Source: Allobosea sp. BK604
GTDB taxonomy: Bacteria > Pseudomonadota > Alphaproteobacteria > Rhizobiales > Beijerinckiaceae
DNA: 64,000 nucleotides
Assembly (NCBI RefSeq): GCF_004341515.1
Contig: NZ_SLZF01000009.1
Span: 62,001 to 126,000, forward strand
Direction of reading: 5' to 3'
Notes under the pieces: model-generated
Database searches by the model: none
What the model was told of the DNA's origin: nothing
Seen by the model: the letters and a program-made list of their open reading frames with translations, nothing else
In this document: positions 8,887 through 59,400 of the stretch, in pieces
How positions within the stretch are numbered: position 1 is the stretch's first letter
Layout of the letters: the number at the start of each line of letters is the position of its first letter
Position numbers and translations under genes: made by a program

Positions 8887-8893
8887 GAGATCT

Positions 8894-15227: not shown

Positions 15228-15258
15228 GCGAACCGGTCAGAGCATCGCGAGCCGCAGC

Positions 15259-17150: not shown

Positions 17151-17151
17151 G

Positions 17152-34553: not shown

Positions 34554-34623
34554 CTGAGGCCTCGGCAGGATTGGGGGCAGGTCGGGGGCAGTGAGTTGGA
34601 TCGTCGCGGGGCGAGCTGGCGAC

Positions 34624-35469: not shown

Positions 35470-35526
35470 GCGTCTTCTCCCGGCTTTTGTTCTTGAGCGA
35501 ATGAGTGGGCCCGATGCGTCTCCGGT

Positions 35527-37254: not shown

Positions 37255-37387
37255 GAAACGGGGGCGGCCTGTCGGAGCGGGCTGAGGCGGAGCGGGCCGC
37301 AGCTTACGCAGACACGCAATCGGCCGCAATGGACCAGTATCACGATGTGAGAATAACAGCTGCACAACGCGAGAAGTAACTCTGCTT

Positions 37388-37404
37388 TTCATACATAGTA
37401 AGAA
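37388..37404. promoter_or_regulatory. candidate IclR operator
   Basis: TTCATACATAGTAAGAA is an inverted repeat of form TTCnTACnnnGTAnGAA in an AT-rich patch of the 227-bp divergent gap. It lies seven bases before a TTGACA box, placed to control both operons. Confidence 0.55.
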
Positions 37405-37410
37405 TGGTCG

Positions 37411-37439
37411 TTGACAGCCTGCGCAGCCACTCCTAGCCT
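37411..37439 (+). promoter_or_regulatory. candidate sigma70-type promoter
   Basis: A consensus -35 box TTGACA at 37,411-37,416 and a 17-bp spacer precede TAGCCT at 37,434-37,439. It would start transcription about 35 bases upstream of the aldose-epimerase-like gene. Confidence 0.45.
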
Positions 37440-37481
37440 TTCCGCAAGATCGGGGTTCTCCCGGCTCAGTGGGGACGAAAC

Positions 37482-38429: not shown

Positions 38430-38512
38430 GGTGAGCCGAAAGGCGGCAGCGACCATTCTACCCAAGGCGACAAGGCCAAAAGGCCGGGCATCATCTCTAT
38501 CGGGAGGAAAGC

Positions 38513-40471: not shown

Positions 40472-40473
40472 TC

Positions 40474-40515
40474 GGCGGGAGCCCGGTGGCGCCGTCGGCG
40501 CGACCGGGCTCCGCC
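40474..40515 (+). promoter_or_regulatory. intra-operon stem-loop after the binding-protein gene
   Basis: GGAGCCCGGT (40,478-40,487) pairs with ACCGGGCTCC (40,503-40,512), and inside it GCGCCG pairs with CGGCGC. Its place between binding protein and permeases suits partial termination or 3'-end protection, which raises binding protein output. Confidence 0.6.
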
Positions 40516-40534
40516 AATCGAGACAGGCAGTGCC

Positions 40535-41521: not shown

Positions 41522-41524
41522 GCA

Positions 41525-42648
41525 ATGACCGACGCTGCCCTCTCATCCGTCGACAGCAAGCGGCTGGCCGTCGCCTCGCAATGGCAACTCGTCTGGTGGG
41601 CGTTCAAGCGCCACCACCTCGCCATGGCCGGGCTGGTCGTCACGGTCCTGCTCTACATCATCGCCATCGCGCCCGGCTTCTTCGCCATCAACGACCCGTC
41701 GCTGCAGAATGCGCGGGCTGCCTTTCATCCGCCGCAGGTGATCCATTTCATCGACAGGGCCGAGGATGGGAGCTGGGCGTTCCGCCCCTTCATCCATCCC
41801 TCCGTCTTCAAGCGCGATCCGCAGACGCTCTCGGCCATCTATAGCGAGGACAAGACCCGCAAGAGCTATATCCGGTTCTTCGGCACGGGCTATGAGTACA
41901 GCCTGTTCGGCCTGTTCAGCACGACCACCCACCTGATCGCCTCGGAGAACAAGGCTCAGCCGATCTTCCTGCTCGGGACGGACCGCCTCGGCCGCTGCGT
42001 CTTCAGCCGCATCATCCAGGGCACCCAGATTTCCCTCTCGGTCGGCCTGGTCGGCGTGCTGCTCTCCCTGACCATCGGGATCCTGCTCGGCGGCATCTCC
42101 GGCTATTTCGGCGGGCGGATCGATTTCGCGGTGCAGCGCGTCATCGAGTTCGTGCTGTCATTGCCCAGCATCCCGATCTGGCTCGCGCTCTCGGCGGCCC
42201 TGCCGCAGGATTGGCCGGCGACGCTCAACTACTTCATGATCACGCTGATCCTCTCGCTGACCGGCTGGGCTCAGCTCGCCCGGGTCGTGCGCGGCCGCTT
42301 CCTGAGCCTGCGCACGGAGGAATTCGTCACTGCGGCACGGCTCGACGGCGTCTCGGAAGGGCGGGTGATCTTCCGCCATATGCTGCCGAGCTTCGCCAGC
42401 CACATCATCGCCTCGATCTCGCTGGCGATCCCGGCGATGATCCTGGCCGAGACCGCGCTCAGCTTCCTCGGACTGGGTCTGCAGCCGCCGACCATCTCCT
42501 GGGGCGTGCTGCTGCGCGAGGCCCAGAACATCCGCTCGATCGCGACAGCGCCCTGGCTGTTCGCGCCTGGCGTCGCCGTGGTGGTTGCCGTGATCGCCCT
42601 CAACTTCCTGGGAGACGGATTGCGCGACGCCGCCGATCCGTACAACAA

Positions 42649-42652
<4 letters not shown>
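41525..42652 (+). CDS. ABC transporter permease, DppC type
   Basis: A 375-residue inner membrane permease, longer than usual for DppC (about 300) because of a periplasmic insertion at roughly residues 60-145 after the first transmembrane segment (contains FHPPQVIHFIDRAEDGSWAF). This insertion is a known feature of a subgroup of DppC-like permeases. The core motif LLGTDRLGRCVFSRIIQGTQISL and the ATPase-contact loop TAARLDGVSEGRVIFRHMLPSF are intact. Its stop overlaps the start of the fused ATPase (ATGA). Confidence 0.92.
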
Positions 42653-44376
<1,724 letters not shown>

Positions 44377-44396
44377 TTGAACCCCGGGGCATAGCC

Positions 44397-45617
44397 ATGA
44401 AGATCGTCGATATCAGGACCTTCCTGATGCATGCGGGTGCGCCCAACCTCAAGAGCTGGGCGTCCGACGGATCATTCGGCACGCAGCAATTCTCGAAGAA
44501 CCTCACCGGCAGCCGCAACTGGCTGTTCGTCAAGGTTGTCACCGATGAAGGCATCACCGGCATAGGCGAATGCTCGGGCTGGCCGCGCGTGATCAGAACC
44601 GCGGTCGAGGACCTGAAATCGCTGCTGGTCGGTGAGGATCCGACGCATATCGAGCGGCTCTGGCAGAAGATGCAGATCGCAATCATGGGCCACGGCATGA
44701 CCGGCGTGGTCGGCGCCGGCGCCATGACCGGCATTGACATGGCGCTCTGGGACATCAAGGGCAAGGCGCTGAAAACACCGGTCTGGAACCTGCTCGGCGG
44801 CAAGCTGCGCGACAAGATCCGCATCTATGGCCATGCGAATACCCCGGAGACCGCGCTGTCGCTGAAGCAGCGCGGCGTCACCGCGATCAAATGCGGAGGC
44901 GTCTCCGATCCCGTCAGGAAGGTCGCGGCGCTGCGCGAAGCGGTCGGTGAGGAGATGGACATCGCCATCGACCTGCACGGCCCGCCATGGCTGACGCCGG
45001 CCGATGCGACGCAGGTCTGCCGTGCCCTCGAACCCTTCAAGATGATGTGGGTCGAGGATCCGATTGCGCCCGACAATCTCGACGGCTACCGCCGTATCCG
45101 CGACCACTCGGCGGTGACGCTGGCGGCTGGCGAGCGCATGGCGACGATCTTCGGCGAACGCGAGCTGATCGAGCGCGAGCTGATCGATGTGGTGCAGCCC
45201 GACACCGGACGGGCCGGCGGCATCACGCAGCTCAAGAAGATCGCGGCGATGGCGGAGGCGCATCACATCATGCTGGCGCCTCATTCCGGCTCGCTCGGGC
45301 CGGTCGCGGAATATGCCGCGCTGCATCTGCTCGCGAGCTGCCCGAACGGCCTGATCCTTGAGCGCATCGAGGACGATTGGGATGGCCGCGCCCAGACGGT
45401 CATCCCGCACCCGACCTCGCGCGACGGCTATCTCGACGTGCCCGACCGCCACGGCCTTGGCGTCGAGATCGACGAGGATTTCGTCGCGCGATGGCCGAGC
45501 GAGATGAACGTCTCGATCCCTGTGACGGAGGGCGCCGGCTCCTATGCCGAGGGCACCTTTCACGAGCATGTCTATGTCCAGACGCGCTGGAAGCGCGGCG
45601 TCTATTTCAAGGGTTGA
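44397..45617 (+). CDS. mandelate racemase/muconate lactonizing enzyme family dehydratase, galactonate-dehydratase-like (1)
   Basis: A 406-residue enolase-superfamily enzyme. The N-terminal cap has TDEGITGIGECSGWPR. The barrel carries the metal ligands Asp in AIDLHG, Glu in WVEDP and Glu in LAAGERM, and a catalytic His in MLAPHSGSLGP. The usual KxK on the second strand is replaced by IKCGG, so the first base differs from mandelate racemase; the DxHG arrangement recalls acid-sugar dehydratases in which a His acts instead. The substrate is probably an aldonate or aldarate. It is 20 bases after the ATPase gene and four before a second dehydratase. Confidence 0.85.
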   Translation: MKIVDIRTFLMHAGAPNLKSWASDGSFGTQQFSKNLTGSRNWLFVKVVTDEGITGIGECSGWPRVIRTAVEDLKSLLVGEDPTHIERLWQKMQIAIMGHGMTGVVGAGAMTGIDMALWDIKGKALKTPVWNLLGGKLRDKIRIYGHANTPETALSLKQRGVTAIKCGGVSDPVRKVAALREAVGEEMDIAIDLHGPPWLTPADATQVCRALEPFKMMWVEDPIAPDNLDGYRRIRDHSAVTLAAGERMATIFGERELIERELIDVVQPDTGRAGGITQLKKIAAMAEAHHIMLAPHSGSLGPVAEYAALHLLASCPNGLILERIEDDWDGRAQTVIPHPTSRDGYLDVPDRHGLGVEIDEDFVARWPSEMNVSIPVTEGAGSYAEGTFHEHVYVQTRWKRGVYFKG

Positions 45618-45621
45618 GCCT

Positions 45622-46824
45622 ATGAAGATCGAGCGCCTGCGGGCCTATATGTCGCGCGACAAGGATCGTCCCCGCGTCGTTGTCGCAATCGACACCGATG
45701 ACGGATTGACTGGCTGGGGCGAGTGCTACAATCACGGGCCCGACAAGGCGTTGCTGCCGCTGCTCGACTATCTGTTCGAGTTCATCCGCGGCCAAGACCC
45801 GCGACGGATCGAATACCTGATCCTCTATCTGTTGCAGCAGAGCCGTTTCCCGCCCGGCGCGCTCGGGCTGGCGGCGATCTCGGCCATCGACCACTGCCTT
45901 TGGGATATATCGGCCAAGGCGCTCGGCGTTCCCGTCTATAGGCTGCTCGGCGGCAATGTCCGCGACCGGGTCCGCGTCTATGCCGGCGTCTATACCGCGC
46001 CGGACCCGGCCATCGCGCGCGATGCGCTCGATGCGCTGAACGAGCAATGGGGGCTGACGGCGTTCAAGCTCAGCCCCTACCGGATCGACATGCATGCCCA
46101 TCGCTGGGGCGAGGTCGTGCGCACCAGCGCCGAGTATTTCCGCGCCCTGCGCGAGACCGTGCGTTCGGATTATGAAATCGCCTTCGACGCCCATGCCAAG
46201 ATCTTCGAGGTCGGGCAGGCGATGCAACTCGGCAATGCGCTCGCCCCCTATGATCCGCTCTTCTTCGAGGAGCCGCTGCGGCCCGAGAACTTTGAGGCCT
46301 GGGGCGAGCTCAAGCGCGGACTGAGCTGCACGCTCGCGACCGGCGAGTCCCTGTACAGCCGGTTCGAGTTCCTGCGGCTGCTCTCGGTCAAGGGCTGCGA
46401 CATCATCCAGCCCGATATCTGCGTCGTCGGCGGCCTGCTGGAGATGCGAAAGATCGCCGCCATTGCCGAAGCGCATTACGTGACCATCGCGCCCCATAAC
46501 CCGATGGGACCACTGGCCACCGCGGTGAACCTGCATTTCTCGGCGGCGCAGCCCAACTTCCGGATCCTCGAGTACCGGCTCCCGCATGGCCCCAATTACG
46601 CCTTCGGCGACGGCAGGGGCGATGCCAATGCGCAGCCGGATCGCTCGCAGGGGGCATGGTACGTCAAGGACCCCTATTTGCCGAAGGACGGCTATCTCGA
46701 CTTGCGACCCGACCGCCCCGGCTGGGGCGTCGAAATGGACATGGACGTCCTGGCCAGGGAGGACTACGTCCACTGGGAGCGCAAGGTCCCGCGCCGCCCG
46801 GACGGCTCGACAGCCTATGCCTGA
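45622..46824 (+). CDS. mandelate racemase/muconate lactonizing enzyme family dehydratase, galactonate-dehydratase-like (2)
   Basis: A 400-residue enolase-superfamily enzyme, last gene of the plus-strand sugar-acid operon. Visible residues are TDDGLTGWGECYNHGPDKA in the cap, then the barrel: FKLSPY on the second strand (no KxK), FDAHAK with metal-binding Asp and a nearby His, Glu in LFFEEPL, Glu in ATGESL, and a His in IAPHNPMGPLA. This layout matches galactonate dehydratase-like enzymes. It shares little sequence with the preceding dehydratase outside the motifs, so the two likely act on different sugar acids. ATG at 45622; the frame upstream overlaps the previous gene. Confidence 0.85.
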   Translation: MKIERLRAYMSRDKDRPRVVVAIDTDDGLTGWGECYNHGPDKALLPLLDYLFEFIRGQDPRRIEYLILYLLQQSRFPPGALGLAAISAIDHCLWDISAKALGVPVYRLLGGNVRDRVRVYAGVYTAPDPAIARDALDALNEQWGLTAFKLSPYRIDMHAHRWGEVVRTSAEYFRALRETVRSDYEIAFDAHAKIFEVGQAMQLGNALAPYDPLFFEEPLRPENFEAWGELKRGLSCTLATGESLYSRFEFLRLLSVKGCDIIQPDICVVGGLLEMRKIAAIAEAHYVTIAPHNPMGPLATAVNLHFSAAQPNFRILEYRLPHGPNYAFGDGRGDANAQPDRSQGAWYVKDPYLPKDGYLDLRPDRPGWGVEMDMDVLAREDYVHWERKVPRRPDGSTAYA

Positions 46825-47061: not shown

Positions 47062-48675
47062 TTACTTCGACGGCTTGCCGTCCTCCGACCAGGCGTCCCA
47101 GAACGAATAATAGGAATAGGCGCTCCATTCGTGCAGGCCGTGGATCTTCTTGTTCCAGACGCCGAGAATGCCGATCTCGACCAGCCAGATCATCGGCTCG
47201 TCCTGGGCCAGGACACGCTGGGCCTCACGATATGCCTGCGTCCTCTTCTCGGTCGACGAGGTGTTCTGGCCTTCGAGCATCAGCTTGTCGATCGCTTCGC
47301 TCCTGTAGCCGGCGCCATTCGTGAAATTGACCGGGCGGATATTCGTCGACACGTAGAGCCGCGACACGTCGATGGCGGGGTCGGCACCCGTCGAGAACGT
47401 GTGCAGGAACGTGTCGTACTCGCGCTTGCTGTAGACGCGATCGAGCATGACGTTGCGCTCGACGAGCTGGATCTCGACTTTGACGCCGATCTGCCCGTAC
47501 TGCTCCTTCAGGATCTCGGCGGTCTTGCGGTTGAATTCGACGCCGCCATCGGCGGTCAGGCGCAGGCTGAACCGTGTCCCGTCCGCCTTGACCGGATAGC
47601 CGGCCTCGTCGAGCATTTTTGCCGCCACGGCCGGATCGAACTTGTAGAGCTCGACATTCGGCTCATAGGCCCAGCTGCTGGAGGCGATCGGTCCCGTGGC
47701 GGGCTTGCCGATGCTATAATCCGCCCGCTCCGCGATCAGCTGCTTGTTGGTGGCATAGGCCAGCGCGCGGCGGACGCGCACATCCTTGAGGATCGCATTG
47801 TCCTGGTTGAAGGTCAGCATCGCGATCGAGGCGAGCGACTCGAAGCCCTTTTTCGTCGAGGTCAGCTTCGGATTCTTCAGCAGGCGCCCGGCCGCCGAGG
47901 ACGGAACCGACTCGTAGGACAGGTAGTCGATATCGCCGGACTCGAGCGCAAGGACGCGGCTGGAGGCGTCAGGAATGACCTGGAAGATCAGGCGATCGAG
48001 ATGCGGCTTGTTCGCGTCGTAGAAATCCTTGTTCCGCTCGAGGGTGATGTGCGAGCCCTTCTTCCATTCGGCGAACTTGAACGGGCCCGTTCCGATCGGC
48101 TTCGAATTGTAGGGATTGCTGCGGATGTCCGTGCCCTCGTAGAGGTGCTTGGGCAGGATGAAGAAGTCGTAGCCCAGAGCGTTCATCAGCGGGCCGAACG
48201 GCGTCTTCAGCCGGATGATGACGGTGTTGTCGTCGGGCGCATCGACCTTGGAGATGATGCTGCCATAGGTCGAGCCACGGCCATGCAGCGGGATGATGAC
48301 GTTCTCGATCGTGAACTTCACATCCGCCGAGGAGAATGGCTGACCGTCATGCCATTTGACGCCCTTGCGGAGGTTGAACGTGTAGCTCAGGCCGTCATCG
48401 GATACGCTCCAGGTTTCCGCCAGGTCCGGAACGGGCTCGAACTTGAAATTGAGCCTGATCAGCATGCTGAAGACATTGCTCGAGACGGTCTTCTCGAGGA
48501 GATTCGCGCTGATCGCGGCGTTGAGAATGCCGGGCTCGCCGGCGAGCCCGACGATCATCGCGCCGCCGACGCGCGGCTTCTCCGCCTGCGCCGAAGCCGG
48601 CGAATGGCTCAAGAGCGTGACGCAGACGAGCAGCGCCACAGCGCGGAGCACGCTCCTGAAACTCAATGCTGGCAT
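47062..48675 (-). CDS. ABC transporter substrate-binding protein, family 5 (dipeptide type)
   Basis: A 537-residue periplasmic binding protein. Residues 1-30 are a Sec signal ending ASAQ. Family 5 signatures are LRKGVKWHDGQPFSSADVKFTIENV, KPIGTGPFKFAEWKKGSHI and DVRVRRALAYATNKQLI. The length is normal for dipeptide/oligopeptide-binding members. It lies on the same strand as, and downstream of, the lyase/permease/PrpD unit at 49.9-54.8 kb, separated by the GntR regulator, and is most likely the binding protein for those permeases. GGGAGGTTTCAC gives a good start at 48675. The ligand would be an amino-acid conjugate if the cluster works as proposed; that is inference. Confidence 0.9.
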   Translation of the reverse strand: MPALSFRSVLRAVALLVCVTLLSHSPASAQAEKPRVGGAMIVGLAGEPGILNAAISANLLEKTVSSNVFSMLIRLNFKFEPVPDLAETWSVSDDGLSYTFNLRKGVKWHDGQPFSSADVKFTIENVIIPLHGRGSTYGSIISKVDAPDDNTVIIRLKTPFGPLMNALGYDFFILPKHLYEGTDIRSNPYNSKPIGTGPFKFAEWKKGSHITLERNKDFYDANKPHLDRLIFQVIPDASSRVLALESGDIDYLSYESVPSSAAGRLLKNPKLTSTKKGFESLASIAMLTFNQDNAILKDVRVRRALAYATNKQLIAERADYSIGKPATGPIASSSWAYEPNVELYKFDPAVAAKMLDEAGYPVKADGTRFSLRLTADGGVEFNRKTAEILKEQYGQIGVKVEIQLVERNVMLDRVYSKREYDTFLHTFSTGADPAIDVSRLYVSTNIRPVNFTNGAGYRSEAIDKLMLEGQNTSSTEKRTQAYREAQRVLAQDEPMIWLVEIGILGVWNKKIHGLHEWSAYSYYSFWDAWSEDGKPSK

Positions 48676-49057
48676 GTGAAACCTCCCGAAGGTCCTTGGC
48701 GTGTCGGCGTCTTGCGCTTCTTCAGCGGTATCTGACCGGCTTCGCTCTTGCCGGCAACAGCTTTGCCGACACTTCGACTATGTGCTGTCGGCCCGATAAT
48801 GTCTATGCTTAAAGGGTTATGTCTATATATCAGAGGTCGCGCCCGCGCCTTTTCGATGCGGTTTCGAGCATCGCCATCCAGCCGCTCGCCCGATGTGGCG
48901 GCCAGCACAGGCGGGCTGGCGCATCGGCCCGAAAAGTGGCTTGCGGTTTTCGGAAAAGCCGATGCGAAAACACGAAGCTGGATCATCGGACCGGATACGA
49001 CAATCAGGTCCGATGATCCAGCGGCGAACGAAGCGCCTATTCCGTAGAGTGACCGCC
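48676..49057. other. leader of the binding-protein gene with RIME-like hairpins
   Basis: A 382-base gap. On the minus strand TAGACA and CATTAT at 18-bp spacing (about 48,795-48,826) could be a promoter, and ATGTCTAT occurs twice 20 bases apart (48,799 and 48,819). The rest is the repeat at 48,921-49,022. Confidence 0.35.
48921..49022. repeat. RIME-like double hairpin
   Basis: Two adjacent palindromes. The first has outer arms GCATCGGC / GCCGATGC (48,921-48,928 and 48,958-48,965) and inner arms CCGAAAA / TTTTCGG. The second has 16-bp arms starting GCTGGATCATCGGACC (48,977-48,992 and 49,007-49,022). The CCCGAAAAGTGG and TTTTCGG elements are characteristic of Hyphomicrobiales mosaic repeats. 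Confidence 0.7.
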
Positions 49058-49777
49058 CTATTCCGTTGAAAGACTTGGCGAAAACCGCGCGATCAGCTCA
49101 TGCGCGTTTCCAGGATAGGTGAGCCGCACCTGGGTCAGGCCCTGCTTGCGACGCCATGTCCGCCGTTCGACGACGAGGCAAGGGCTCCCCTGCTCGACAT
49201 CCAGCTGCTCGGCTCCTTCCGCCGACGCGGCGATCGCCATGATGCGGTGCTCGGCCGATGTCCACGGGATGGAATTTTTCATCCAGGTGCCTGGCGGCTC
49301 GGTCTCGAACCGCTCGCCTTCGGCCTCCGGAACGCCGTCCAGGCTGATGACGCGCTCTTCGAGGCAGAACGGCGTATCGCGGGCGAAGTGACGACAGGCC
49401 AGATCGAGGACATAGGCGTTCGGAGGCAGGTTGAGAGCCATGCGCTCGGCCGAATTCGCGCGCCGCTTGCGCCTCGCCGTGATGTCGAAGCGGTAGGGCG
49501 CTCCGAGGGCTGATACTTCCGCCCTGATGTCCATGATCTCCAGCACCGCATGCTGGGTATGGGGCTGCCGCACGAAGCTGCCGGCCTTGCGGCGCCGCTC
49601 GATCAGCCCGGCGCCGGTGAGCTGGGTCAAGACCTTGCTCACAGTCATGCGCGAGCAGTTATAGCGCTCGGTCAGCGCCTGCTCGATCGGGATCCGATAG
49701 CCCGGCGGCCACTCGCCCGACAGGATCGAGCCTTCTATGTCTCTCAGGATCCGCTCATGAAGAGAAACGGCCTTCAT
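49058..49777 (-). CDS. GntR-family regulator, HutC subgroup
   Basis: A 239-residue regulator. The winged HTH is at residues 5-70 (GEWPPGYRIPIEQALTERYNCSRMTVSKVLTQLTGAGLI). The C-terminal half is a UTRA ligand-binding domain; its end, RRTWRRKQGLTQVRLTYPGNAHELIARFSP, closely follows the histidine-utilisation repressor HutC. No histidine-degradation gene is nearby, so the ligand is probably another compound, perhaps an intermediate from the lyase/PrpD pathway beside it. A TGTATATACA palindrome, the HutC-type operator core, lies upstream of the lyase gene at 54,909. It is 197 bases downstream of the PrpD-type gene. Confidence 0.88.
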   Translation of the reverse strand: MKAVSLHERILRDIEGSILSGEWPPGYRIPIEQALTERYNCSRMTVSKVLTQLTGAGLIERRRKAGSFVRQPHTQHAVLEIMDIRAEVSALGAPYRFDITARRKRRANSAERMALNLPPNAYVLDLACRHFARDTPFCLEERVISLDGVPEAEGERFETEPPGTWMKNSIPWTSAEHRIMAIAASAEGAEQLDVEQGSPCLVVERRTWRRKQGLTQVRLTYPGNAHELIARFSPSLSTE

Positions 49778-49974
49778 GGAACATGCCTCGTGCTGACCTC
49801 GAGAGCCGATTGAGCCACTCCGAACCTATCCAATCCGCTTTCCCTCCAGCCTGCCAAGCAAGGAGCGGTCCAACTGATCCTGCGTTCGAGCGGCGGATAG
49901 GCTGGCGCGCGCTTCGGCAGGATGCAGATGGGAGGCACCCGGCTTCCCCGCGGGATCATGCTGCCTCGAAACGC

Positions 49975-51360
49975 TCAGCCTTGCACAATATAGGCACCTT
50001 CAGCGCGAACATCATGGTGAGCTCGCTCCGTGGGGGTCATCGAGGTCACGATGCCGGCGAGGAGGTGAGCGAGCCCGGCCACGTCATCTGCCGACGCGCA
50101 GGTCGTCGCCAGCCTTTGCAGCGAAGCGACTGCCGCGCCGTCATATGAGGCGCAGACGGCCGCGAACCTGCGCTCGACATCGGAGACGGAGAGATTGCTG
50201 AGCGGTTCCGCTCCCTCCTGCCTCGTGCCGTCGTCCCAGGTCAGGGTCACGCGGGCAAATCTTGGCGGAAGCGACGGGTCCCCGCCGCTATGGATAAGGG
50301 GATACCACTTGCCCACATCCGGATCGCTCAACCAGGCCGCGGGCGGGCGGACCTGCTCGGCCGGGTAGCCCGCCAGAACCAATGCGATGGCGAACTGCAC
50401 GCTGAATTTCGCCGCGAGCAGATTGCCGGGCTCCCGCACCGAGACGAGCTCGGCGGTCGGTGGACACAGGACGGCATCCACGCGTCGGAGATGGTGGAGT
50501 GGTCGCTTCGCCGCCGCCAGCAGGGCCTTCACGCCTTCCAACGGCTCGAAGCAACCCAGGCAGAATGGGTAGCGCTTGAAGATGTTGCGCAGGATCGACC
50601 AGCGCTGGCCGAGGTCGTGAAGGCCGTAGCGATCTTTCGCGTCCAGACCGTCGCCGCCGTCAGCTTCGGCATCCAGCGCGTTCAGGAAGCCCTTCTGGCC
50701 GTCCAGGCTCGCCGGCGACGCCTTGAGGCCGAGCCCGGCCAGCCTCGCGGAACGCACGGCCCTCTCGGCGGCAAAGCCCGAATGCATGTGCTTGAGGCCG
50801 ATCGCCTCGGTGCTGATGCCTTCCCAGAGCCCGCTCGCCGAGGTCGCGGCGATGCCGATCGCATTGCGGATCTGGTCGCGCGAGAGCCCAAGGACGACAG
50901 AGGCGGCCGCAGCCGCGCCGATCGCACCGCATGTCGCGGTGGTGTGAAAATAGCGATAGTGGCTAGGCCCGGCGATGACGCCGAGGCGAACGGCGACGTC
51001 GTAGCCGACCGCAATCGCGGCGAGCACCGTGTCGAAAGGCACCGGGCGGTAGCGAGTCGCCGCGATCGCAGCCGCCACGACGACGGATCCCGTATGCAGC
51101 GACGTGTCGAAATGCACGTCGTCGATCTCGTCGACGGTGGATGCAGCGCCGAGGCAGAGCGCCAGCTGTTCACCCGACAGGCCGGTCGCATCGGCGGGGA
51201 GATAGGCTCGCAGCAAGTCTCCGGTTTCGCTTCTCAGGCCGTAGAGCACCGCATGGAGGTGATCGATGAAGCATAGTCGTGCACGGTCGCTCACGTCCTT
51301 CGGCAGCGGCCGGCCGGCGCTGTCATGGCAGAATTGAGCGAACGCGGTAGCCAGGGACAT
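49975..51360 (-). CDS. MmgE/PrpD family protein (2-methylcitrate dehydratase / iminodisuccinate epimerase fold)
   Basis: A 461-residue member of the MmgE/PrpD family. Family stretches are DDVHFDTSLHTGSVVVAAAIA, SHYRYFHTTATCGAIGAAAAAS, IGLKHMHSGFAAERAVRSAR and FKRYPFC. The family includes 2-methylcitrate dehydratase, cis-aconitate decarboxylase and iminodisuccinate epimerase. No prpB or prpC genes are near, so propionate catabolism is unlikely. Its location downstream of an argininosuccinate-lyase-like gene and ABC permeases favours an epimerase or dehydratase acting on an imported substituted succinate. GGGAG is nine bases upstream of the ATG. The exact reaction is unproven. Confidence 0.88.
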   Translation of the reverse strand: MSLATAFAQFCHDSAGRPLPKDVSDRARLCFIDHLHAVLYGLRSETGDLLRAYLPADATGLSGEQLALCLGAASTVDEIDDVHFDTSLHTGSVVVAAAIAATRYRPVPFDTVLAAIAVGYDVAVRLGVIAGPSHYRYFHTTATCGAIGAAAAASVVLGLSRDQIRNAIGIAATSASGLWEGISTEAIGLKHMHSGFAAERAVRSARLAGLGLKASPASLDGQKGFLNALDAEADGGDGLDAKDRYGLHDLGQRWSILRNIFKRYPFCLGCFEPLEGVKALLAAAKRPLHHLRRVDAVLCPPTAELVSVREPGNLLAAKFSVQFAIALVLAGYPAEQVRPPAAWLSDPDVGKWYPLIHSGGDPSLPPRFARVTLTWDDGTRQEGAEPLSNLSVSDVERRFAAVCASYDGAAVASLQRLATTCASADDVAGLAHLLAGIVTSMTPTERAHHDVRAEGAYIVQG

Positions 51361-51482
51361 CAGGAGCGCTCCCGTCGATAGAATTCAGTCTTCGCCGGCT
51401 TCGAGCCGCCTTGAAAAAGATAATGGCCGCGCTCGTCCCGTCACGGGCGCGCGCTGGCCGCGCCGGTCTTCCTGCGCCGGAA

Positions 51483-52313
51483 TCACCGCCTGTTTCCGTT
51501 CTGGCGTGGATCGAGCAAGTCGTTGAGGCCATCGCCCAGAAGGTTGAAACCCAGGGTCGTGATCAGGATCGCGCAGCCCGGAAAGACGGCCATCCACCAG
51601 GCCTGAGCCAGGAAGGGCTGCGCGCTGAACAGGAGCTGGCCCCAGCTGATCTTGTCCGGGTCGCCCAATCCCAGAAAGCTGAGATTGGCCTCGGTCAGGA
51701 TGGCGCTGGCGATTTGCAGCGACGCATTGACGATGACGGGCGGCAATGCGTTCGGCAGGATCTCCTTGAAGATGATCCGGACCCGGGAGGCTCCGGCGAC
51801 CTCGGCGGCGGCAACGAAATCCGTGCTGCGCAGACGGAGGAATTCCGCCCTGACGATGCGCGCCGTACTCGGCCAGCTCAGGATTCCGATGACGATGACG
51901 ATCTTGGTCAGGGACGGGCCGAACAGGGCCACGATCAGGATCGCCAGGAAGAATTGCGGGATGATCTGGAAACCTTCCGAGACCCGCATCAGCAATTCGT
52001 CGGTGACGCCGCCGGTATAGCCCGCGACGGAACCGATGAGGATGCCGATGATGCAGGAGCAGATCGCCGCCGCGAAACCGACGATCAGCGAGACCTGGGC
52101 GCCGCGCGCCATCCGGACGAACATGTCGCGGCCCAGATCATCCGAGCCGAAGATGCAGCCCGGGCCGGGCGGGCAGAACGCCTCCGCGCCCATCTCCGAG
52201 CCCGAGCCGGCGAGCAGCGGCCCGATGATCGCGATCGACAGCGCGATCAGGACGACGGCCAGGCCGACGACGGCGGATGGGCTGCGCTGAAGGCGAGACC
52301 AGAATTGCGACAT
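51483..52313 (-). CDS. ABC transporter permease, DppC type
   Basis: A 276-residue inner membrane permease. It has the DppC N-terminal segment, GSDDLGRDMFVRMARGAQVSL, the ATPase-contact loop AAAEVAGASRVRIIFKEILPN and a C-terminal GDGLNDLLDPRQ. The ATG at 52313 is used rather than a GTG three codons earlier. It pairs with the DppB-type gene 16 bases upstream. No ATPase gene follows; the next gene on this strand, 122 bases on, encodes the MmgE/PrpD protein. Confidence 0.92.
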   Translation of the reverse strand: MSQFWSRLQRSPSAVVGLAVVLIALSIAIIGPLLAGSGSEMGAEAFCPPGPGCIFGSDDLGRDMFVRMARGAQVSLIVGFAAAICSCIIGILIGSVAGYTGGVTDELLMRVSEGFQIIPQFFLAILIVALFGPSLTKIVIVIGILSWPSTARIVRAEFLRLRSTDFVAAAEVAGASRVRIIFKEILPNALPPVIVNASLQIASAILTEANLSFLGLGDPDKISWGQLLFSAQPFLAQAWWMAVFPGCAILITTLGFNLLGDGLNDLLDPRQNGNRR

Positions 52314-52329
52314 AGCCGGCACGGTCCGT

Positions 52330-53316
52330 TCAGCTGTAGCGAATGCGGGGGTCGATGAGCGCGTAGAGAATATCGGTCACCAGGTTGACCAGGATCACCG
52401 CGACGGTCGCGCACAGGATGATTCCGGTGATCAGCGGGTAGTCCCGCGCCATGACGCCGTCGTAGAGCAGGCGGCCCATGCCTGGCCACGCGAAGACGAC
52501 TTCGACCAGGACCGATCCGGTCAGCATCGTGCCGAAATCCATGCCGACGATCGTGATGACCGGCAACAACGCGTTCGGCAGCGCGTGCGTCGACAGCATG
52601 GCGCGTTCGCTGAGCCCCTTCGCGCGTGCCGTCGTCATGTAGTCCAGGCGAAGCACCTGCATCATGCTCGATCGCGTCATGCGCATGCTGAGCGCGACGA
52701 AGCGCATGCCGAGCGCCAGCGCGGGCAGCGCCAGGTGCAGGGCGATGTCGAGCACTTTCCCCCAGCCCTCGGTCGGGTTCCGCAGGTTGAGCATGCCCTG
52801 CGTCGGGAAAAGCCCGAGCTTGAGGGCGAAGACGATGACCAGCAGCTGACCCAGCCAGAACACCGGCACCGACCAGCCGAACAGGCCGATGCCGCTCAGC
52901 ACCAATCCCGCCCGCGAGTTCGGATAGCGCGCGGCCAGGACCCCCAGAAGGATGCCGATGCTGATGAAGAGGATCATCGCCGGCACCATCAGGATCAACG
53001 TCGCCGGCAGCCGGTCGATGATCAGGGACGCGACCGATTCCTGGTACCGGTACGACATGCCGAAATCGCCGGTCAGGATCTTCGATACGTACAGGTAGTA
53101 CTGGACGCCGAGCGACTGATCCAAACCGTATGCGCGCTTGAGCTCGGCGAGTTGGGCGTCGCTGAGGTCCGCGTCGCCCGTGATGAAGTTCAGCGGATTG
53201 CCCGGCGCCAGGTGAACCATCATGAAGACGGCGCTCACCACGATGAACAGGGTCGGAACCCCGAACATGACCCGCCGCAGCACGAAGCCGAGCAATCCAG
53301 GGCTACCCGAGGACAT
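52330..53316 (-). CDS. ABC transporter permease, DppB type
   Basis: A 328-residue inner membrane permease with FVLRRVMFGVPTLFIVVSAVF at the start, the LKRAYGLDQSLGVQYYLY periplasmic segment, the cytoplasmic loop TTARAKGLSERAMLSTHALPN, and the C-terminal LIDPRIRYS. Its ATG lies two bases after the stop codon of the lyase gene, so lyase and permease are translated together. This tight link indicates the lyase substrate is imported by this transporter. Confidence 0.93.
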   Translation of the reverse strand: MSSGSPGLLGFVLRRVMFGVPTLFIVVSAVFMMVHLAPGNPLNFITGDADLSDAQLAELKRAYGLDQSLGVQYYLYVSKILTGDFGMSYRYQESVASLIIDRLPATLILMVPAMILFISIGILLGVLAARYPNSRAGLVLSGIGLFGWSVPVFWLGQLLVIVFALKLGLFPTQGMLNLRNPTEGWGKVLDIALHLALPALALGMRFVALSMRMTRSSMMQVLRLDYMTTARAKGLSERAMLSTHALPNALLPVITIVGMDFGTMLTGSVLVEVVFAWPGMGRLLYDGVMARDYPLITGIILCATVAVILVNLVTDILYALIDPRIRYS

Positions 53317-53318
53317 CT

Positions 53319-54842
53319 CTATTCTGCCGCGAGGATGGCATCGATGGCGGCTTCGAGATCGGCGCCGGCCTTGTCCAGCCTGGCGCTGAGCGCGGCGCCG
53401 GCGCCGCGATCCGCCGCGATTGTCTCGCGAGCCTTCTCGAGCTGATGCGCTACCTGGTTCGGGGCCGGCGAGCCCTCGACGAAATGGCGAGCCTTGAGGG
53501 AAAGCTCGGGATCCAGCGCCTCGGTGATGTGCTGCTGCGAGATCGTGAGCGGCTGTCCGAGCACTTTCTCCGCGATTGCGGAAATATAGGCCGGATCGAT
53601 CTCGGCCGGGCTGATATTCTGCTCGATGGTTTCGCGCACGAGATGGGCGAGCACCTGATGCGCATCGCGCCAGGAGAGTCCGCCATGCTGCGTCAGCGCG
53701 GCGGCCAGATCGGCCGCCTGGGTCCAGCCTTGCGAGGCGCTGTCCCTGAGGCGCGCCGCATCGAACCGGACCGAGCCGACGATGCCCGACAGCATCTCGA
53801 ACATGTCCTCGGCGGTCTCGCGCGCCTCGTAATAGCTCCACGGCGCCATCAACGTGTCTTCGAGGCCGTCGGACTCGGTCTTCAGCAGCGAGAAGATACC
53901 GCCCATCTTGTTCAGCTCGACCGCCGACTGCCCCCTGATCCAGGCGAGGGCCCAAGAATTCTTCTTCTGCGGCATGATGCTGCTGGTGCTGCAGTAGCGG
54001 TCGTCAAGTTCGGCGAACTTGATCGTGCTCATCGTCCACAAATAGAGATCGCTGGCGACGCTCGCCGCATTCGAGATTGCGATGGACAGCAGCGAATGGG
54101 CGTGGAGCAGGCTGTCGAGATTGATCACCGCGTCGCGCGTGTTGATCTGGACCGCGTCGAAACCCAGCAGGGCGGCGGTCCGGGCGCGCGAGATCCGGAA
54201 GGGCGAGCCGGTCATGATGCCGGAGCCGGCCGGGCTTTCCGCCACCTCCTCGAACAGCGCCAGGGCACGCCGGACATCGCGCGCGAACGGCGCTTCCCAG
54301 GACAGGAGGACATGACCGAGCGAGGTGCATTGCGCGTGCTGGCCGATGCTGAAGGCCGGCATCACGGTATTCACATGCAGCGCCGCGACATTCACCAGGC
54401 TTTCCCTGAGGTCGTTCAGCTTCGCGACGAGCCGGGGAATGCTCCTGCGCAGATTGAAGCGCCAGGCCACGGCGTCTAGATCGCCCGAGCTCCGGCCCAT
54501 GTTGATCCAGCCTGCGCCCGTCGAGCCGAGCGTCTCGGTGAGGAACGCCTCGCCGGAGTGGCGGCCGCCGCCCATCCGGTCACGGACGGTCTCAATGCCT
54601 TCCGCCTCCATATTGCGGAGGCCGCCGAGCAGGCTGCGGGCGATGTCACGGCTGATGAGGCCGCCTTCGAGAAGGGCGATGGTGTGGGCCTTGTCGAAGC
54701 TGTGGAAGGCCAGATAGCTGTGCCGAAGATTCGTGATCGAGCCGGGATAAAAGCGCTTCTGAAGCAGCGGATCGACTTGCTTCGTCAAGCGCGCGCCAAC
54801 CTGGCGAACGACATCGGCCAATGGTCTTCTCCCTTTCGGCAT
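53319..54842 (-). CDS. argininosuccinate lyase-like C-N lyase (fumarase/aspartase superfamily)
   Basis: A 507-residue lyase. The superfamily signature is TSSIMPQKKNSWALA at 286-300, with the mobile-loop catalytic Ser. The second conserved region is QHAQCTSLGH (168-177), and the first is GRSSGDLD (116-123), where true argininosuccinate lyases have GRSRND. That change, the extra length over the usual 460 residues, and the absence of argG nearby argue against arginine synthesis. EDDS lyase, of about 500 residues, belongs to this group and releases fumarate from N-substituted aspartates. It heads an operon with two permeases and an MmgE/PrpD gene. An in-frame TTG at 54821, with AGGGAG upstream, is an alternative start. 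Confidence 0.85.
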   Translation of the reverse strand: MPKGRRPLADVVRQVGARLTKQVDPLLQKRFYPGSITNLRHSYLAFHSFDKAHTIALLEGGLISRDIARSLLGGLRNMEAEGIETVRDRMGGGRHSGEAFLTETLGSTGAGWINMGRSSGDLDAVAWRFNLRRSIPRLVAKLNDLRESLVNVAALHVNTVMPAFSIGQHAQCTSLGHVLLSWEAPFARDVRRALALFEEVAESPAGSGIMTGSPFRISRARTAALLGFDAVQINTRDAVINLDSLLHAHSLLSIAISNAASVASDLYLWTMSTIKFAELDDRYCSTSSIMPQKKNSWALAWIRGQSAVELNKMGGIFSLLKTESDGLEDTLMAPWSYYEARETAEDMFEMLSGIVGSVRFDAARLRDSASQGWTQAADLAAALTQHGGLSWRDAHQVLAHLVRETIEQNISPAEIDPAYISAIAEKVLGQPLTISQQHITEALDPELSLKARHFVEGSPAPNQVAHQLEKARETIAADRGAGAALSARLDKAGADLEAAIDAILAAE

Positions 54843-55143
54843 AGTGCCCTAGCGGCAGGCACTGGATGTCGCATATCCCAGATCGCCTGACGCTAGTCAT
54901 AATTATTATTGTATATACATATTGAGGGCTCCCAAACCTGTCAAACCTGGCGGGCTGAAGACGATCGTTCCGTCGAGGGAGCCGTCGGGCCGGAGCTTCG
55001 TCCCCGCGGATCGCCGTGCCATCCGTCGCGCCCCGCAGGTTGAACGGTCGGCCGTTTCCCCACCAGCTCCCGAATCGCTTATCGGTAGCCGGCAAATTAT
55101 CTGGACATACCGAGCCGGATCCCAGGCCGCGGACGGGCGGTGG
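54843..55143. other. promoter region of the lyase operon
   Basis: A 301-base gap. The AT-rich patch 54,896-54,925 contains the HutC-like palindrome. The remainder is GC-rich and shows nothing further. Confidence 0.4.
54909..54920. promoter_or_regulatory. candidate HutC-type GntR operator
   Basis: TTGTATATACAT contains the perfect palindrome TGTATATACA, the core recognised by HutC-subgroup regulators. It is 67 bases upstream of the lyase start in an otherwise GC-rich region, and the regulator gene lies in the same cluster at 49058. Confidence 0.55.
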
Positions 55144-56217
55144 CTAGCGAGGCTTCGCTGCGTCAGCCGGCCGGGCGACCATCCGAATGGATGCATGCCG
55201 CGCGGCTTCGGCGGGTGTCTTGCCGAACCGGCGGCCGAACGCGGTGGCGAACCGTGTTGCGTTGGTGAAACCGTAACGGCGGGCGATCGCCGCGACCGAC
55301 GCCTCGCCGATGCCGCGTGCGAGCTCGTCATGCGCCAGATCGAGCCGGATGGCATGGAGCGCCGCCAGCGGGGTGCTGCCGCGGAAATGTCTGAAGACGC
55401 TCGTCAGGGTCCGCAAACTGCAGCCGGCGGCCGCGGCGACATGCGTCATTCGGATCGGCTGCGCGCCATGGGCGCGCATGAAATCCTCCGCACGCCGGAC
55501 ATAGGCGGGGATCGCCGTGTCGCCCGTGCTGGCGAGCCGCGCGGTATGGTTATGGCGGGCGCCATGCAGAACCAGCGAGATGATCGAATCGGTCAGGGAT
55601 GCCAGGGCGACCGGGCTGCTCGGCACGCCGTCCTCCCTCTGGAACTCGTGCATGACGAAATCGAGCTGGTGCATCAGGCTGGCCGTGAGCCCCCTGCTCC
55701 AATCGAGGCCGGGCTCGAAATCCAGGGACTGGCGCAGCGGCTCGTCCAGCATGTGCTCCAGCGCGGTCTCCAGATCCGCGACCTTGAAGAAGATGTTGTT
55801 GCGCGCATTGTCGTCGCTGATCGAGAGCCGGCCGCCCGGACCGGGCCTCCAGACGAGGCCCGACCGGGTCGTCGCCGTCGTGACCGCCCCCCCCTTCGCC
55901 AAGGTGATCTGGCCCGCCAGCATGGTCGTGAAGCAGTACAGGTCGCCATCGTCGCCATCGACGGAGACGACGGTTGCGAAACTGCTATCGGCATAGCTCG
56001 CCAGGATCGCCCCCGTTCCACGCGTGGCAAGCGTGAAGATCGGCTGTTCGAACCGCATGCGCCACAGCGCGCGATCCTGCAGTTGATAGGTGTAGACGCG
56101 GCGCGAACGTTCGGCCCGTTCGGGCACGTGAATCTGGCCGTTCAGATCGTCCGGATCATTCGTCCGGACGACATCGAACATCGCCAATCGGGCGGAAGCG
56201 CCCAAAGGTTCGGCCAT
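55144..56217 (-). CDS. AraC-family regulator with N-terminal ligand domain
   Basis: A 357-residue regulator. Residues 35-215 form an AraC-binding-like beta-rich domain. Residues 250-345 are the double HTH: MTHVAAAAGCSLRTLTSVFRHFRG and SVAAIARRYGFTNATRFATAFGRRFGKTPAE. The ATG at 56217 is preferred because GGGGG is six bases upstream; an ATG two codons earlier touches the same site. Longer upstream frames would run into the promoter of the divergent autotransporter gene. The 196-bp divergent gap suggests it controls that gene, as AraC regulators of surface proteins often do; this is inference. Confidence 0.88.
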   Translation of the reverse strand: MAEPLGASARLAMFDVVRTNDPDDLNGQIHVPERAERSRRVYTYQLQDRALWRMRFEQPIFTLATRGTGAILASYADSSFATVVSVDGDDGDLYCFTTMLAGQITLAKGGAVTTATTRSGLVWRPGPGGRLSISDDNARNNIFFKVADLETALEHMLDEPLRQSLDFEPGLDWSRGLTASLMHQLDFVMHEFQREDGVPSSPVALASLTDSIISLVLHGARHNHTARLASTGDTAIPAYVRRAEDFMRAHGAQPIRMTHVAAAAGCSLRTLTSVFRHFRGSTPLAALHAIRLDLAHDELARGIGEASVAAIARRYGFTNATRFATAFGRRFGKTPAEAARHASIRMVARPADAAKPR

Positions 56218-56413
56218 CGACATCCCCCTGCCCCGGCCTTCATCGCCCGAATCTCCCGCCAACTTTGACAAAATCGGCAGCGGATCGACAGATTCGGCGA
56301 CGAAATCCTGAATGTCATCAGAAACATCATCGCCTGTTTCGGGCGATATGCAACCGTGAGTTCCCCGCCTCCCAGCCGCGACTCTGGGGCCCGACATCTT
56401 TCGGATTATACCT

Positions 56414-59400
56414 ATGCCAGCTCTGAACTTCCTCCGCCCCCGGCGCGGAGTCCCGACCGCTGGTCTGGTCGCCCTCGGCTTGTTGCTGGCCACCGCCGAC
56501 GAAGCCTTCGCACAATGCGCGGCAAACGCCTGCGTGGTCACCAGCAGCGCCGACACCTTGGGTGGCGCTCAGACGACGCTCCGGGACGCGATCACCTACG
56601 CGAACGCCAATGCCGGAACCACGATCACGTTCTCAAACGCGATCGCAGGGCAGACGATCACCGTAGGCAGCTCCGGGCTGAACGAACTGCCGCTCGTGAT
56701 CGGGAACAACACCGTCATCGACGGCGGTGCGAACAACATCACCGTGAGCGGCGGCTCGACCAGCGCAACCACCGGCTACCGCGTGTTCTTCATCGGCGAT
56801 GCCGGCCAAACCGGCGCCGCAAGGACGAATGCGACAATCCAGAACCTGACCATAACGGCCGCCAACGCCCGCGGCGGCAGCATCGGTGGCGCCGGCAGCG
56901 GCGGCGGCGGCGGCGCGGGATTGGGCGGCGCGATCTTCGTCAGCTCGACGGGTGCGTTGACGGCTGGGAACCTCACCCTTGCCTCGAACAGCGCCACGGG
57001 CGGGAATGCCCTCGGGCCGAACCACCCCGCCAATATCCACGGTCCCGGCGCAGGCATGGGCGGCGATGTCCCCGACTGCTGCAACGGCGGCGCCGGCGGC
57101 TTCGGAAGCGGGGCGACCGGTGGCGCTGCCGGAGGCGGCTCGGGAGCTCCTGGAGCGTTCACGGGGGGCGCCAGCGCGGGCTCGAGCAATGGCGCCGGGG
57201 GGGCCAGTGGCGGCGGAGGCGGAGGCGGGATCGGGTTCGCTGAAAGCGGCGGCGGCGGCGTCGGCGGCACGCACGCCGGTGGGTTCGGCGGCGGCGGCGG
57301 TGGCGACGGCTTCGGTAGCGGCGGCGCCGGCGGGTTCGGTGGCGGTGGCGGCGCTGGGGCGGTCGGAGGATTCGGCGGCGGTGGCGGCGTTGGAAGCGCC
57401 GGCGGCTTTGCGGGAGGCTCCGGCACCTCTGGCGCCGGAGCCGGCGGCGGCGGAGGCGCCGGCCTGGGGGGCGCCATCTTCGTCACGGAGGGCGGCTCTC
57501 TCACATTCAACAATTCGCTGAACGTCACCGGTAACAGCGTGACGGCCGGCACGGCGACGCCGCCCGCGGCGGCCGGCTCGGCCTTCGGGGCGGGGCTCTT
57601 CCTGCAGGGGAACGGCAACATCGTCTTCAACCCGGCGCTCGGAGCCTCCCAGAGCATCGGCAACGCCATCGCCGACCAGACGGGGTCGGGCGGCACGGGC
57701 ACCTTCGCATCGGGCGGGCCGACCTGCACGCCTGGGGCCGCGACGCCCTGCGCCGGTTATGCCGGCGCCGGGAGCTGGAGCTTGACCAAGAACGGGGCTG
57801 GCACGCTGACCCTGTCGGGCCCCAACACCTATTCCGGCGGCACGACGATCAATGCCGGCACGCTGGTCGGTTCGTCGACCTCCTTCGGATCGGGCGCGAT
57901 CAACGACAATGCGGCCCTGATCCTCGATCAGGCGGCCGCGGGCACCTTGGCCAACCTCATCACCGGCACCGGAACGGTCACCAAGACCGGGGCCGGGGCC
58001 CTCACCCTGACCGGCCCCAACTCCTACCTGGGCGGCACGACGATCAGTGCCGGCACGCTGATCGGCTCGTCGACCTCCTTCGGATCGGGCGCGATCGATG
58101 ACAATGCGGCCCTGATCCTCGATCAGGCGACCGCGGCCACCTTCGCCAACCTGATCACCGGCACGGGAACGCTCACCAAGACCGGAGCGGGCGCGCTCAC
58201 GCTGACCGGCCCCAACACCTACTTGGGCGGAACGACGATCAGTGCCGGCACGCTGATCGGCTCGTCGACCTCCTTCGGATCGGGAGCGATCGACAACAAT
58301 GCGGCCCTGATCCTCGATCAGGCGACCGCGGCCACCTTCGCCAACCTGATCACCGGCACGGGAACACTCACCAAGACCGGAGCGGGCGCCCTCACCCTGA
58401 CGGGCTCCAACACCTACTTGGGCGGCACGACGATCAGTGCCGGCACGCTGATCGGGTCCTCCACCAGCTTCGGTACCGGGCCGATCGTGAACGACGCCGC
58501 GCTCGAGATCGATCAGGCGGCCGCAGGCACCCTCGCTGGCGCCATCTCGGGCAGTGGCACCCTGACGAAGACAGGAGCGGGCGCCCTCACCCTGGCCGGC
58601 CCCAACACCTATGCAGGCGGCACGACGATCAGCGCCGGCACACTGATCGGCTCGTCGACCTCCTTCGGATCGGGCGCGATCGACAACAATGCCGCCCTGA
58701 TCCTCGATCAGGCGACCGCGGGCACCCTCGCCAACCTGATCACCGGCACCGGAACGGTCACCAAGACCGGTGCGGGCGCCCTCGCCCTGACCGGCACCAA
58801 CAGCTATGCGGGCGGCACGACGATCAGTGCCGGCACGCTGATCGGGTCCTCCACCAGCTTCGGTACCGGGTCGATCGCCAACGACGCCACGCTCGAGATC
58901 GATCAGGCGACCGCAGGCACGCTCGCCAACCTGATCACCGGCACCGGAACGGTCACCAAGACCGGAGCGGGCGCGCTCACCCTGGCCGGCCCCAACACCT
59001 ACCTGGGCGGCACGACGATCAGCGCCGGCACGCTGATCGGCTCGTCGACCTCCTTCGGATCGGGCGTGATCGACGACAATGCGGCCCTGATCCTCGATCA
59101 GGCGACCGCGGCCACCTTCGCCAACCTGATCACCGGCACCGGAACGCTCACCAAGACCGGGGCCGGGGCGCTCACCCTGACCGGCCCCAACAGCTATGCG
59201 GGCGGCACGACCATCGTGGCCGGCACGCTGATCGGGTCCTCCACCAGCTTCGGTACCGGGCCGGTCGTGAACGATGCCGCGCTCCAGATCGATCAGGCGG
59301 CCGCAGGCACGCTCGCTGGCGCCATCTCGGGCAGCGGCACCTTGACCAAGACCGGAGCGGGCGCCCTCACCCTGACCGGCTCCAACACCTATGCGGGCGG

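Follow-up and report, generated by a model that had tools for sequence, protein, structure and literature searches.

What compound might be handled by a gene cluster in which an argininosuccinate-lyase-like gene, two Opp-type permease genes, a MmgE/PrpD-family gene and a gene for a HutC-type regulator stand in a row? We addressed this question for such a cluster of Allobosea sp. BK604, which lies in a 64,000-nucleotide stretch of contig NZ_SLZF01000009.1 (hereafter the window). A preliminary description of this DNA had reported the five genes and placed the lyase gene two bases from the permease genes: Pfam searches found all five on the minus strand at the places claimed, and the distance is exact (the gaps along the series lyase, permease B, permease C, PrpD and HutC are 2, 7, 122 and 197 bases). 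The same description had proposed an epimerase-plus-lyase pathway for compounds resembling iminodisuccinate (IDS) or ethylenediaminedisuccinate (EDDS). The evidence presented below leads us to favor, at about an even chance, a dedicated catabolic operon that would import, isomerize and cleave a 2-substituted succinate, most likely one derived from aspartate; EDDS or IDS itself is unlikely to be the substrate of the window proteins.

The lyase (P0001) belongs to the Lyase_1 family (Pfam) and keeps the superfamily signature, the loop SSIMPQKKN (SSIMPQKKNSW) being intact. It scores below the ArgH model TIGR00838 (NCBIfam; 233.9 bits vs a cut-off of 279.5), and an alignment with ArgH-type rows shows the ArgH motifs GRSRND and T-H replaced by GRSSGD and S-I. 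A clear ArgH is encoded elsewhere in the genome, on contig C1 (600.7 bits vs the cut-off of 279.5); a second paralog, on contig C2, also passes the model (507.8), and more lyase-like paralogs lie on C14, C1, C10 and C8. Searched alone against the PDB, P0001 finds EDDS lyase best at 168 bits, other argininosuccinate lyases reaching at most 132, and a profile of eight lyases with the RSSGD motif gives 330 bits for EDDS lyase and 277 for the next other enzyme. The EDDS-lyase chains (the PDB 6G3D set, including 6G3H) carry the PDB label "argininosuccinate lyase"; 6G3H is named EDDS lyase in the available text of PMC12363623. Two trees, built from 32 and 30 proteins, place P0001 in a nine-row clade (support 100/98) whose members all have RSSGD and which stands apart from EDDS lyase, ArgH and XcbC.

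The MmgE/PrpD protein (P0002), searched alone, is closest to B. subtilis IRG1 (99.9 bits), whose function is described as undetermined in the accessible part of PMC12290011, and then to IDS epimerase (72.1 bits). By contrast, the PrpD of genome G001 (P0021) finds IDS epimerase best (140.7 bits vs 114.2 for IRG1), and a profile of six lyase-adjacent PrpDs puts IDS epimerase narrowly above IRG1 (238.6 vs 231.2 bits), with cis-aconitate decarboxylase at about 198–204 bits and 2-methylcitrate dehydratase at no more than 65. The last enzyme is also absent from the 10 PDB matches of P0002: the tight clustering with 2-methylcitrate dehydratases that the preliminary description had set against its own proposal was not seen. 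NCBIfam models gave P0002 no match at E ≤ 0.001. Seven residues of IDS epimerase, H85, D88, H99, Y145, H150, K198 and K266, are singled out in the accessible part of PMC12290011; in our alignment with these, P0002 matches six of the seven, E78, H89, Y135, H139, K190 and K262 corresponding to D88, H99, Y145, H150, K198 and K266 (one match being D to E), and H85 is replaced by T75. P0002 could thus plausibly run a two-base isomerization of a 2-substituted succinate.

Relatives of the lyase were sought in 61 related, 297 order-level, 385 class-level and 398 phylum-level genomes (overlapping samples that include the own genome), with an E-value cut-off of 1e-60, or 1e-70 for the phylum sample. Besides the window's own lyase, that of G556 (P0018) alone exceeded 60% identity across the four samples, the other listed matches being at 30–37%; when the G556 lyase served as the query in 116 genomes around G556, two further matches appeared (35 and 38%). 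P0002 had no other match in the 61 relatives at E 1e-40, and in 376 class-level genomes at E ≤ 1e-35 only G556 exceeded 40% identity (51%). The gene order in G556 is lyase (63% identical), permease B (72%), permease C (72%), fused OppDF and PrpD (50%). This conserved order and identity, together with a genome-unique HutC operator in the promoter region (see below), argues that the arrangement is beyond chance.

The lyase/PrpD pairing recurs. A MmgE/PrpD gene is found near the RSSGD lyase at five of eight loci besides the window (L112, whose contig ends inside PrpD, L118, L019, L021 and L114) vs one of the 95 other loci among those listed (0/87, 0/5 and 1/3; one-sided Fisher p 3.7e-6), a contrast that is partly one between catabolic and biosynthetic lyases, since the 95 are mostly ArgH-type. 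Here, "nearby" means within the stretch examined (RSSGD loci had median flanks of 17.4 kb, both sides together, and the others 19.7 kb), and the counting profile for MmgE/PrpD comprised 27 proteins, among them the window, G556 and G530 ones. The contig scan for lyase loci gave 80 loci among the matches listed, by motif mostly ArgH-type. One representative each was kept of six near-identical Bradyrhizobium plasmid matches (L117), two Variovorax matches and two Thioclava matches; short copies of counted loci (L016–L018, L107–L111) and short own-genome copies (L001–L007) were dropped, the own-genome paralogs L022–L025 were counted among the other loci, and L027, an RSSGD locus with an interrupted lyase frame on a 5-kb contig of a metagenome-assembled genome, was left out. 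The exception among the other loci, L166, pairs a GRSRND lyase scoring above the ArgH cut-off (331.5) with a PrpD gene that overlaps the lyase gene by 4 bases; its PrpD shares a 99/98 clade with the G001, G330 and G530 PrpDs, outside which the window and G556 PrpDs fall (support for the split is moderate, 91/82).

The neighbors of these pairs bear on the nature of the compound. In G530, a methylaspartate ammonia-lyase (442 bits vs a cut-off of 286), a binding protein, PrpD, OppB, OppC, OppD, OppF and the lyase are encoded in one row on one strand, OppD and OppF being identified from translations only. In both G001 and G330, the PrpD gene comes immediately before that of the lyase and a family-3 binding protein adjoins; in G330, a beta-aspartyl-peptidase-like protein then follows (267.8 bits, below the cut-off of 331). 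Aspartate-related neighbors are present at four loci (the ammonia-lyase, the peptidase-like protein, an aspartate/glutamate racemase family protein and an asparaginase), and an aspartate-derived compound is therefore favored. The repeated pairing beside peptide- or amino-acid-type importers would be best explained by the import, isomerization and elimination of a 2-substituted succinate.

Other loci with related genes were noted along the way. The L166 cluster (823–17593, G287) has an Opp importer, M20/M24/M28 peptidases and three arginase-family proteins beside its lyase and PrpD, and possibly serves guanidino-succinate or argininosuccinate-like catabolism. Non-RSSGD "argininosuccinate lyase" genes stand beside Opp-type permease genes at L156, L157, L159 and L020 (Geminicoccaceae, Roseibium and Agrobacterium vitis plasmids; G021), and may be part of a wider set of catabolic lyases with poor annotation. 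A lyase paralog with GRSSQD (L005 1237–2904, G000:C1) has an apparent signal peptide by eye, is possibly periplasmic and sits on a very long branch. At L003/L023 (G000:C14), an argininosuccinate-lyase-like gene is immediately followed, by eye, by one for an ABC ATPase and scores 265.3 on the ArgH model, just under 279.5. The genome also has a pair of MmgE/PrpD paralogs no more than about 5 kb apart (L026, G000:C3:82000-101500), with tripartite-tricarboxylate-transporter-like proteins and a GntR regulator as neighbors by eye.

The regulator (P0003) passes the HutC model (TIGR02018, NCBIfam; 276.2 bits vs a cut-off of 220) and is a paralog, 44.5% identical, of the HutC of the hut locus, which lies with hutI, hutF and that HutC on contig C13, not on the window contig. 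According to the available portion of PMC12977541, HutC operators have the core TGTA-N2-TACA; an exact match, TGTATATACA, lies 67 bases upstream of the lyase start, overlapping the weak promoter-like -10 of the operon (site 54935–54908, which scores 9/12; the region has 3 such sites vs 1.4 expected). In the 7.63-Mb genome, TGTATATACA occurs at a single place, counted on both strands as a palindrome, and the reversed-pattern control gave 0. For the operator with up to one mismatch, 0.08 occurrences are expected in the window, and 7 of 100 shuffles contained one. The one-mismatch site TGTCTATATA is within chance, at least two matches being found in 18 of 100 shuffles. The operator and the HutC-type regulator together would tie the regulator to the lyase operon.

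A family-5 binding protein (Pfam), probably part of the same importer as the two Opp/Dpp-type permeases, is encoded next to the five genes. Its gene (47062–48675), to which the preliminary description did not extend, is separated from the repressor gene by a 382-base gap. On NCBIfam models, this protein (P0004) reaches 202.5 bits for Opp4A, 187.5 for NikA and 127.4 for CntA, the last two far below their cut-offs. Another ATPase gene, recognized from translations, is present elsewhere in the window. The region 33297–46824 reads as a sugar-acid (uronate) cluster with glucarate/galactonate-dehydratase-like proteins, a uronate-dehydrogenase-like short-chain dehydrogenase/reductase, an IclR-type regulator and an Opp importer with a fused ATPase (P0007 was run on Pfam and NCBIfam, and the other genes were judged from translations). 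A uronate link to the operon was discarded, the genes at 33–47 kb reading as a separate sugar-acid cluster; its ATPase might nevertheless serve the importer of the lyase operon.

How could these parts work together? In the aspartase/fumarase superfamily, many lyases act by eliminating a substituent from a core of four carbons, a 1,4-dicarboxylate. The characterized MmgE/PrpD enzymes are said, in the accessible part of PMC12290011, to have this core in common, with proton exchange at C2. In our proposal, the HutC-type repressor would occupy TGTATATACA at the promoter and so prevent expression of the operon, and it would be released by a ligand akin to the imported compound or to its product. 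Import would depend on the family-5 binding protein and the two permeases, with an ATPase encoded elsewhere; the 2-substituted succinate brought in would most likely be a conjugate that derives from aspartate and resembles an opine or a peptide. The MmgE/PrpD protein would exchange a proton at the substituted carbon via an enolate, thereby interconverting stereoisomers, one of which the lyase would take, eliminating the substituent to give fumarate or a fumarate-like acid and an amine or amino acid. Gene content and order, the operator, clade membership and the residue sets are read directly from the sequence; repression, import, epimerization, elimination, the product and the ligand are what we deduce from them.

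Several observations weigh against this scheme, or against a tight kinship of its two enzymes with EDDS lyase and IDS epimerase. On the lyase side, forcing P0001 and P0018 together with EDDS lyase and the latter's close relative L045 was rejected by the approximately unbiased (AU) test (p 0.000167; the AU groups follow the hypothesis of the preliminary description, with L045, P0018 and, in the PrpD test, P0025 of G556 added after the trees or searches had been seen). The EDDS-lyase residues close to the substrate are R112, N113, Q159, N288, D290 and Y320 according to the available text of PMC12363623: only one of the six, N288, is kept in the alignment with P0001, R112, N113, Q159, D290 and Y320 being replaced by S119, G120, I166, W297 and L331. 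The lyase may therefore handle another scaffold, and the intact SSIMPQKKN loop combined with these five replacements suggests that P0001 is likely an active elimination enzyme with an altered pocket. On the PrpD side, the grouping of P0002 with IDS epimerase was rejected (AU p 0.0039, to be read with caution given an epimerase fragment and long branches). T75 and F271 occupy positions that are His in 25 and 26 of the 30 aligned family members, respectively; we take the position of F271 to be that of H277 of human CAD. Y135 was set aside as proof of epimerase activity, because 24 of the 30 family members have it and it is therefore not specific evidence for epimerization; the PrpDs of G001, G330 and G530 are without it. 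No ATPase gene was found within the cluster (open reading frames and gaps checked), and the 122-base gap between permease C and PrpD, the place that corresponds to that of the fused OppDF in G556, leaves no room for one. Finally, PrpD is missing from the examined stretch at three of the eight RSSGD loci (L113, L120 and L117, the last being the asparaginase locus); RSSGD was accordingly rejected as an absolute marker of the pairing, given these three loci and L166. The Variovorax pair is weak: its PrpD is about 3 kb from the lyase, forms a very long branch and departs from the family at several catalytic positions. The neighbors vary by locus, agmatinase-like, Mo-hydroxylase and methyltransferase genes being found too.

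The idea of an epimerase plus a lyase put forward in the preliminary description thus gains support in its logic, since the lyase family is nearest EDDS lyase by profile and the lyase-adjacent PrpDs are, narrowly, nearest IDS epimerase, in a pair that recurs. It is not supported at the level of the enzymes themselves, the window lyase failing to group with EDDS lyase and having lost five of six contacts, and P0002 alone being nearer IRG1, with its grouping with the epimerase rejected. The window enzymes, members of neither tested family, may still work like an epimerase-plus-lyase route.

The alternative that survives best, though we consider it unlikely, is that the operon degrades a tricarboxylate or another non-nitrogen compound, the lyase acting on C–C or C–O bonds, like other members of its superfamily, and the PrpD being of aconitate or citrate type. 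Trans-aconitate decarboxylase and 3-carboxymuconate cycloisomerase are among the matches of the lyase profile, but at 57–71 bits, far below the 330 bits of EDDS lyase. A tricarballylate dehydrogenase and tripartite-tricarboxylate-transporter binding proteins are encoded near the lyase and PrpD of Variovorax, which form the weak pair described above, and the loss of residues near the aspartate-type substrate of EDDS lyase also fits; the permeases encoded in the window, in G556 and in G530 are of Opp type, however, as are the window and G530 binding proteins.

A chelator or metallophore (EDDS, IDS or aspergillomarasmine) cleaved in the manner of EDDS lyase after epimerization, which is the preliminary proposal in its narrow form, appears quite improbable. 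EDDS lyase and, narrowly, IDS epimerase are the nearest solved relatives of the two families, and the binding protein does score on the NikA and CntA models, yet less than on Opp4A; both AU tests and the five changed contacts speak against it. So does the existence of a closer relative of EDDS lyase, separate from the window lyase: L045 (3235–4851, Bradyrhizobium sp. LTSP885) groups 100/100 with 6G3D and has GRSRDD and T-H. No MmgE/PrpD gene was found near L045 in the 15-kb stretch examined.

We are equally doubtful of an N-methylated amino-acid conjugate or a betaine from which the lyase would eliminate a methylated amine. The G556 lyase is preceded, on the same strand, by genes for a MttB-family methyltransferase, a DMGDH-like/GcvT fusion and a partial DddP-like M24 protein, and a regulator of HutC type might point to a ligand resembling urocanate, but MttB/DMGDH/DddP-type genes are absent from the window cluster and the other loci differ in their neighbors. 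An ergothionase role, suggested by these G556 genes and HutC, was dropped as a lead for the same reasons; no ergothioneine-named model is among the 12 NCBIfam matches of the lyase, the existence of an ergothionase model not having been checked. That the cluster is a loose neighborhood of a divergent argininosuccinate lyase and an unrelated PrpD has as little in its favor: P0013 (314.6) and P0020 (318.0), both RSSGD members, score above the ArgH cut-off and others miss it (P0018, 273.6; the G530 lyase, 273.2; P0019, 253.2), but P0001 fails it more clearly, the genome has its ArgH elsewhere, and gene order, operator and recurrence argue for linkage.

Returning to the import, isomerization and cleavage of a 2-substituted succinate, the window/G556 branch has uncharged residues in both sites (I166 or Leu and W297 in the lyase, T75 or Ala and F271 in PrpD), a joint shift which suggests that one carboxylate is masked (amide- or peptide-like) or that the leaving group is bulky and hydrophobic. 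We know of no degradation route for such succinates. As a tentative extension, possible but doubtful at this stage, RSSGD lyase and MmgE/PrpD might constitute an isomerase-plus-elimination module, repeatedly recruited with varied importers for natural 2-substituted succinates, the window and G556 version being devoted to a substrate of this masked or hydrophobic kind. No description of a lyase/PrpD operon of this kind was recognized in the literature searched, which mostly excluded subscription papers. Since IDS is a synthetic chelator, our scheme, if true, would extend its epimerase-plus-lyase logic to natural metabolites and provide new C–X lyases for biocatalysis. Several "argininosuccinate lyase" annotations beside importers look like catabolic enzymes, and the lyase/PrpD pair with its dedicated repressor and single operator makes a directly testable system of two soluble enzymes, a binding protein and an operator, each of which can help name the compound.

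Features of the lyase operon and its surroundings (window coordinates)
Feature	Position	Strand	Basis
Aspartase/fumarase-superfamily lyase, RSSGD clade (P0001), probable C–X lyase	53319..54842	-	Pfam Lyase_1 + ASL_C2
Opp/Dpp-type permease B (P0005)	52330..53316	-	Pfam BPD_transp_1; 72% identical in G556
Opp/Dpp-type permease C (P0006)	51483..52322	-	Pfam BPD_transp_1 + OppC_N; 72% identical in G556
MmgE/PrpD-family protein (P0002), probable epimerase/isomerase	49975..51360	-	Pfam MmgE_PrpD_N 155.5 bits; residue comparison
HutC-subfamily GntR/UTRA repressor (P0003)	49058..49777	-	Pfam GntR/UTRA; NCBIfam TIGR02018
Family-5 solute-binding protein (P0004), probably same importer	47062..48675	-	Pfam SBP_bac_5 313 bits
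Predicted HutC operator TGTATATACA	54910..54919	.	Exact match to TGTA-N2-TACA
One-mismatch HutC-like site TGTCTATATA, upstream of binding-protein gene	48820..48829	+	1 mismatch to TGTMTAKACA
Hairpin, 20-base arms, between repressor and binding-protein genes; possible terminator	48977..49022	.	Repeat search, 95% complementary

The hairpin is absent from the list produced by the terminator scan. The AraC-type gene at 55144–56220 (P0008, Pfam) does not appear to belong to the operon, nor do the genes on the plus strand below 47 kb. Beyond the AraC-type gene, 56414–61774 encodes a 1786-residue repetitive autotransporter-like protein (from translation), and a 1290-residue open reading frame (19359–23231) lies in a stretch of lower GC content (0.551 at 20–24 kb vs 0.616–0.692 in the other 4-kb bins), perhaps acquired DNA.

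The system can be set against several known ones. The (S)/(R)-methylsuccinate isomerase, a MmgE/PrpD enzyme compared here by description, resembles P0002 in its two-base His/Tyr isomerization residues and in the Glu at the D88 position; unlike P0002, it sits in an itaconate cluster, and no lyase partner of the window kind is described for it in the accessible part of PMC12290011. HutC-regulated hut operons share with the window a regulator that passes the HutC model and an operator equal to TGTA-N2-TACA, whereas the P0003 gene stands beside lyase and permease genes and the hut locus of the genome keeps its own HutC. XcbC of bacterial coenzyme M synthesis is the best NCBIfam model for P0001 (247.6 bits); a coenzyme M role was rejected, however, as this score is far under the cut-off of 575 and XcbC1 occupies a separate 100/100 branch, and other coenzyme M genes were not seen among the cluster genes run on Pfam. 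EDDS lyase of Chelativorans BNC1 (PDB 6G3D-6G3I, 6RX8) differs from P0001 in its clade and in the five contacts that became S, G, I, W and L, yet is the best solved relative of both P0001 and its family, with SSIMPQKKN and N288 in common. In IDS degradation, the epimerase (PDB 2HP0/2HP3) acts with a C–N lyase. Our comparison covers the epimerase of this pathway: P0002 has Thr for H85 and its placement as a sister was rejected, but it keeps the equivalents of H99, Y145, H150, K198 and K266, with Glu for D88, and the two systems draw on the same two protein families.

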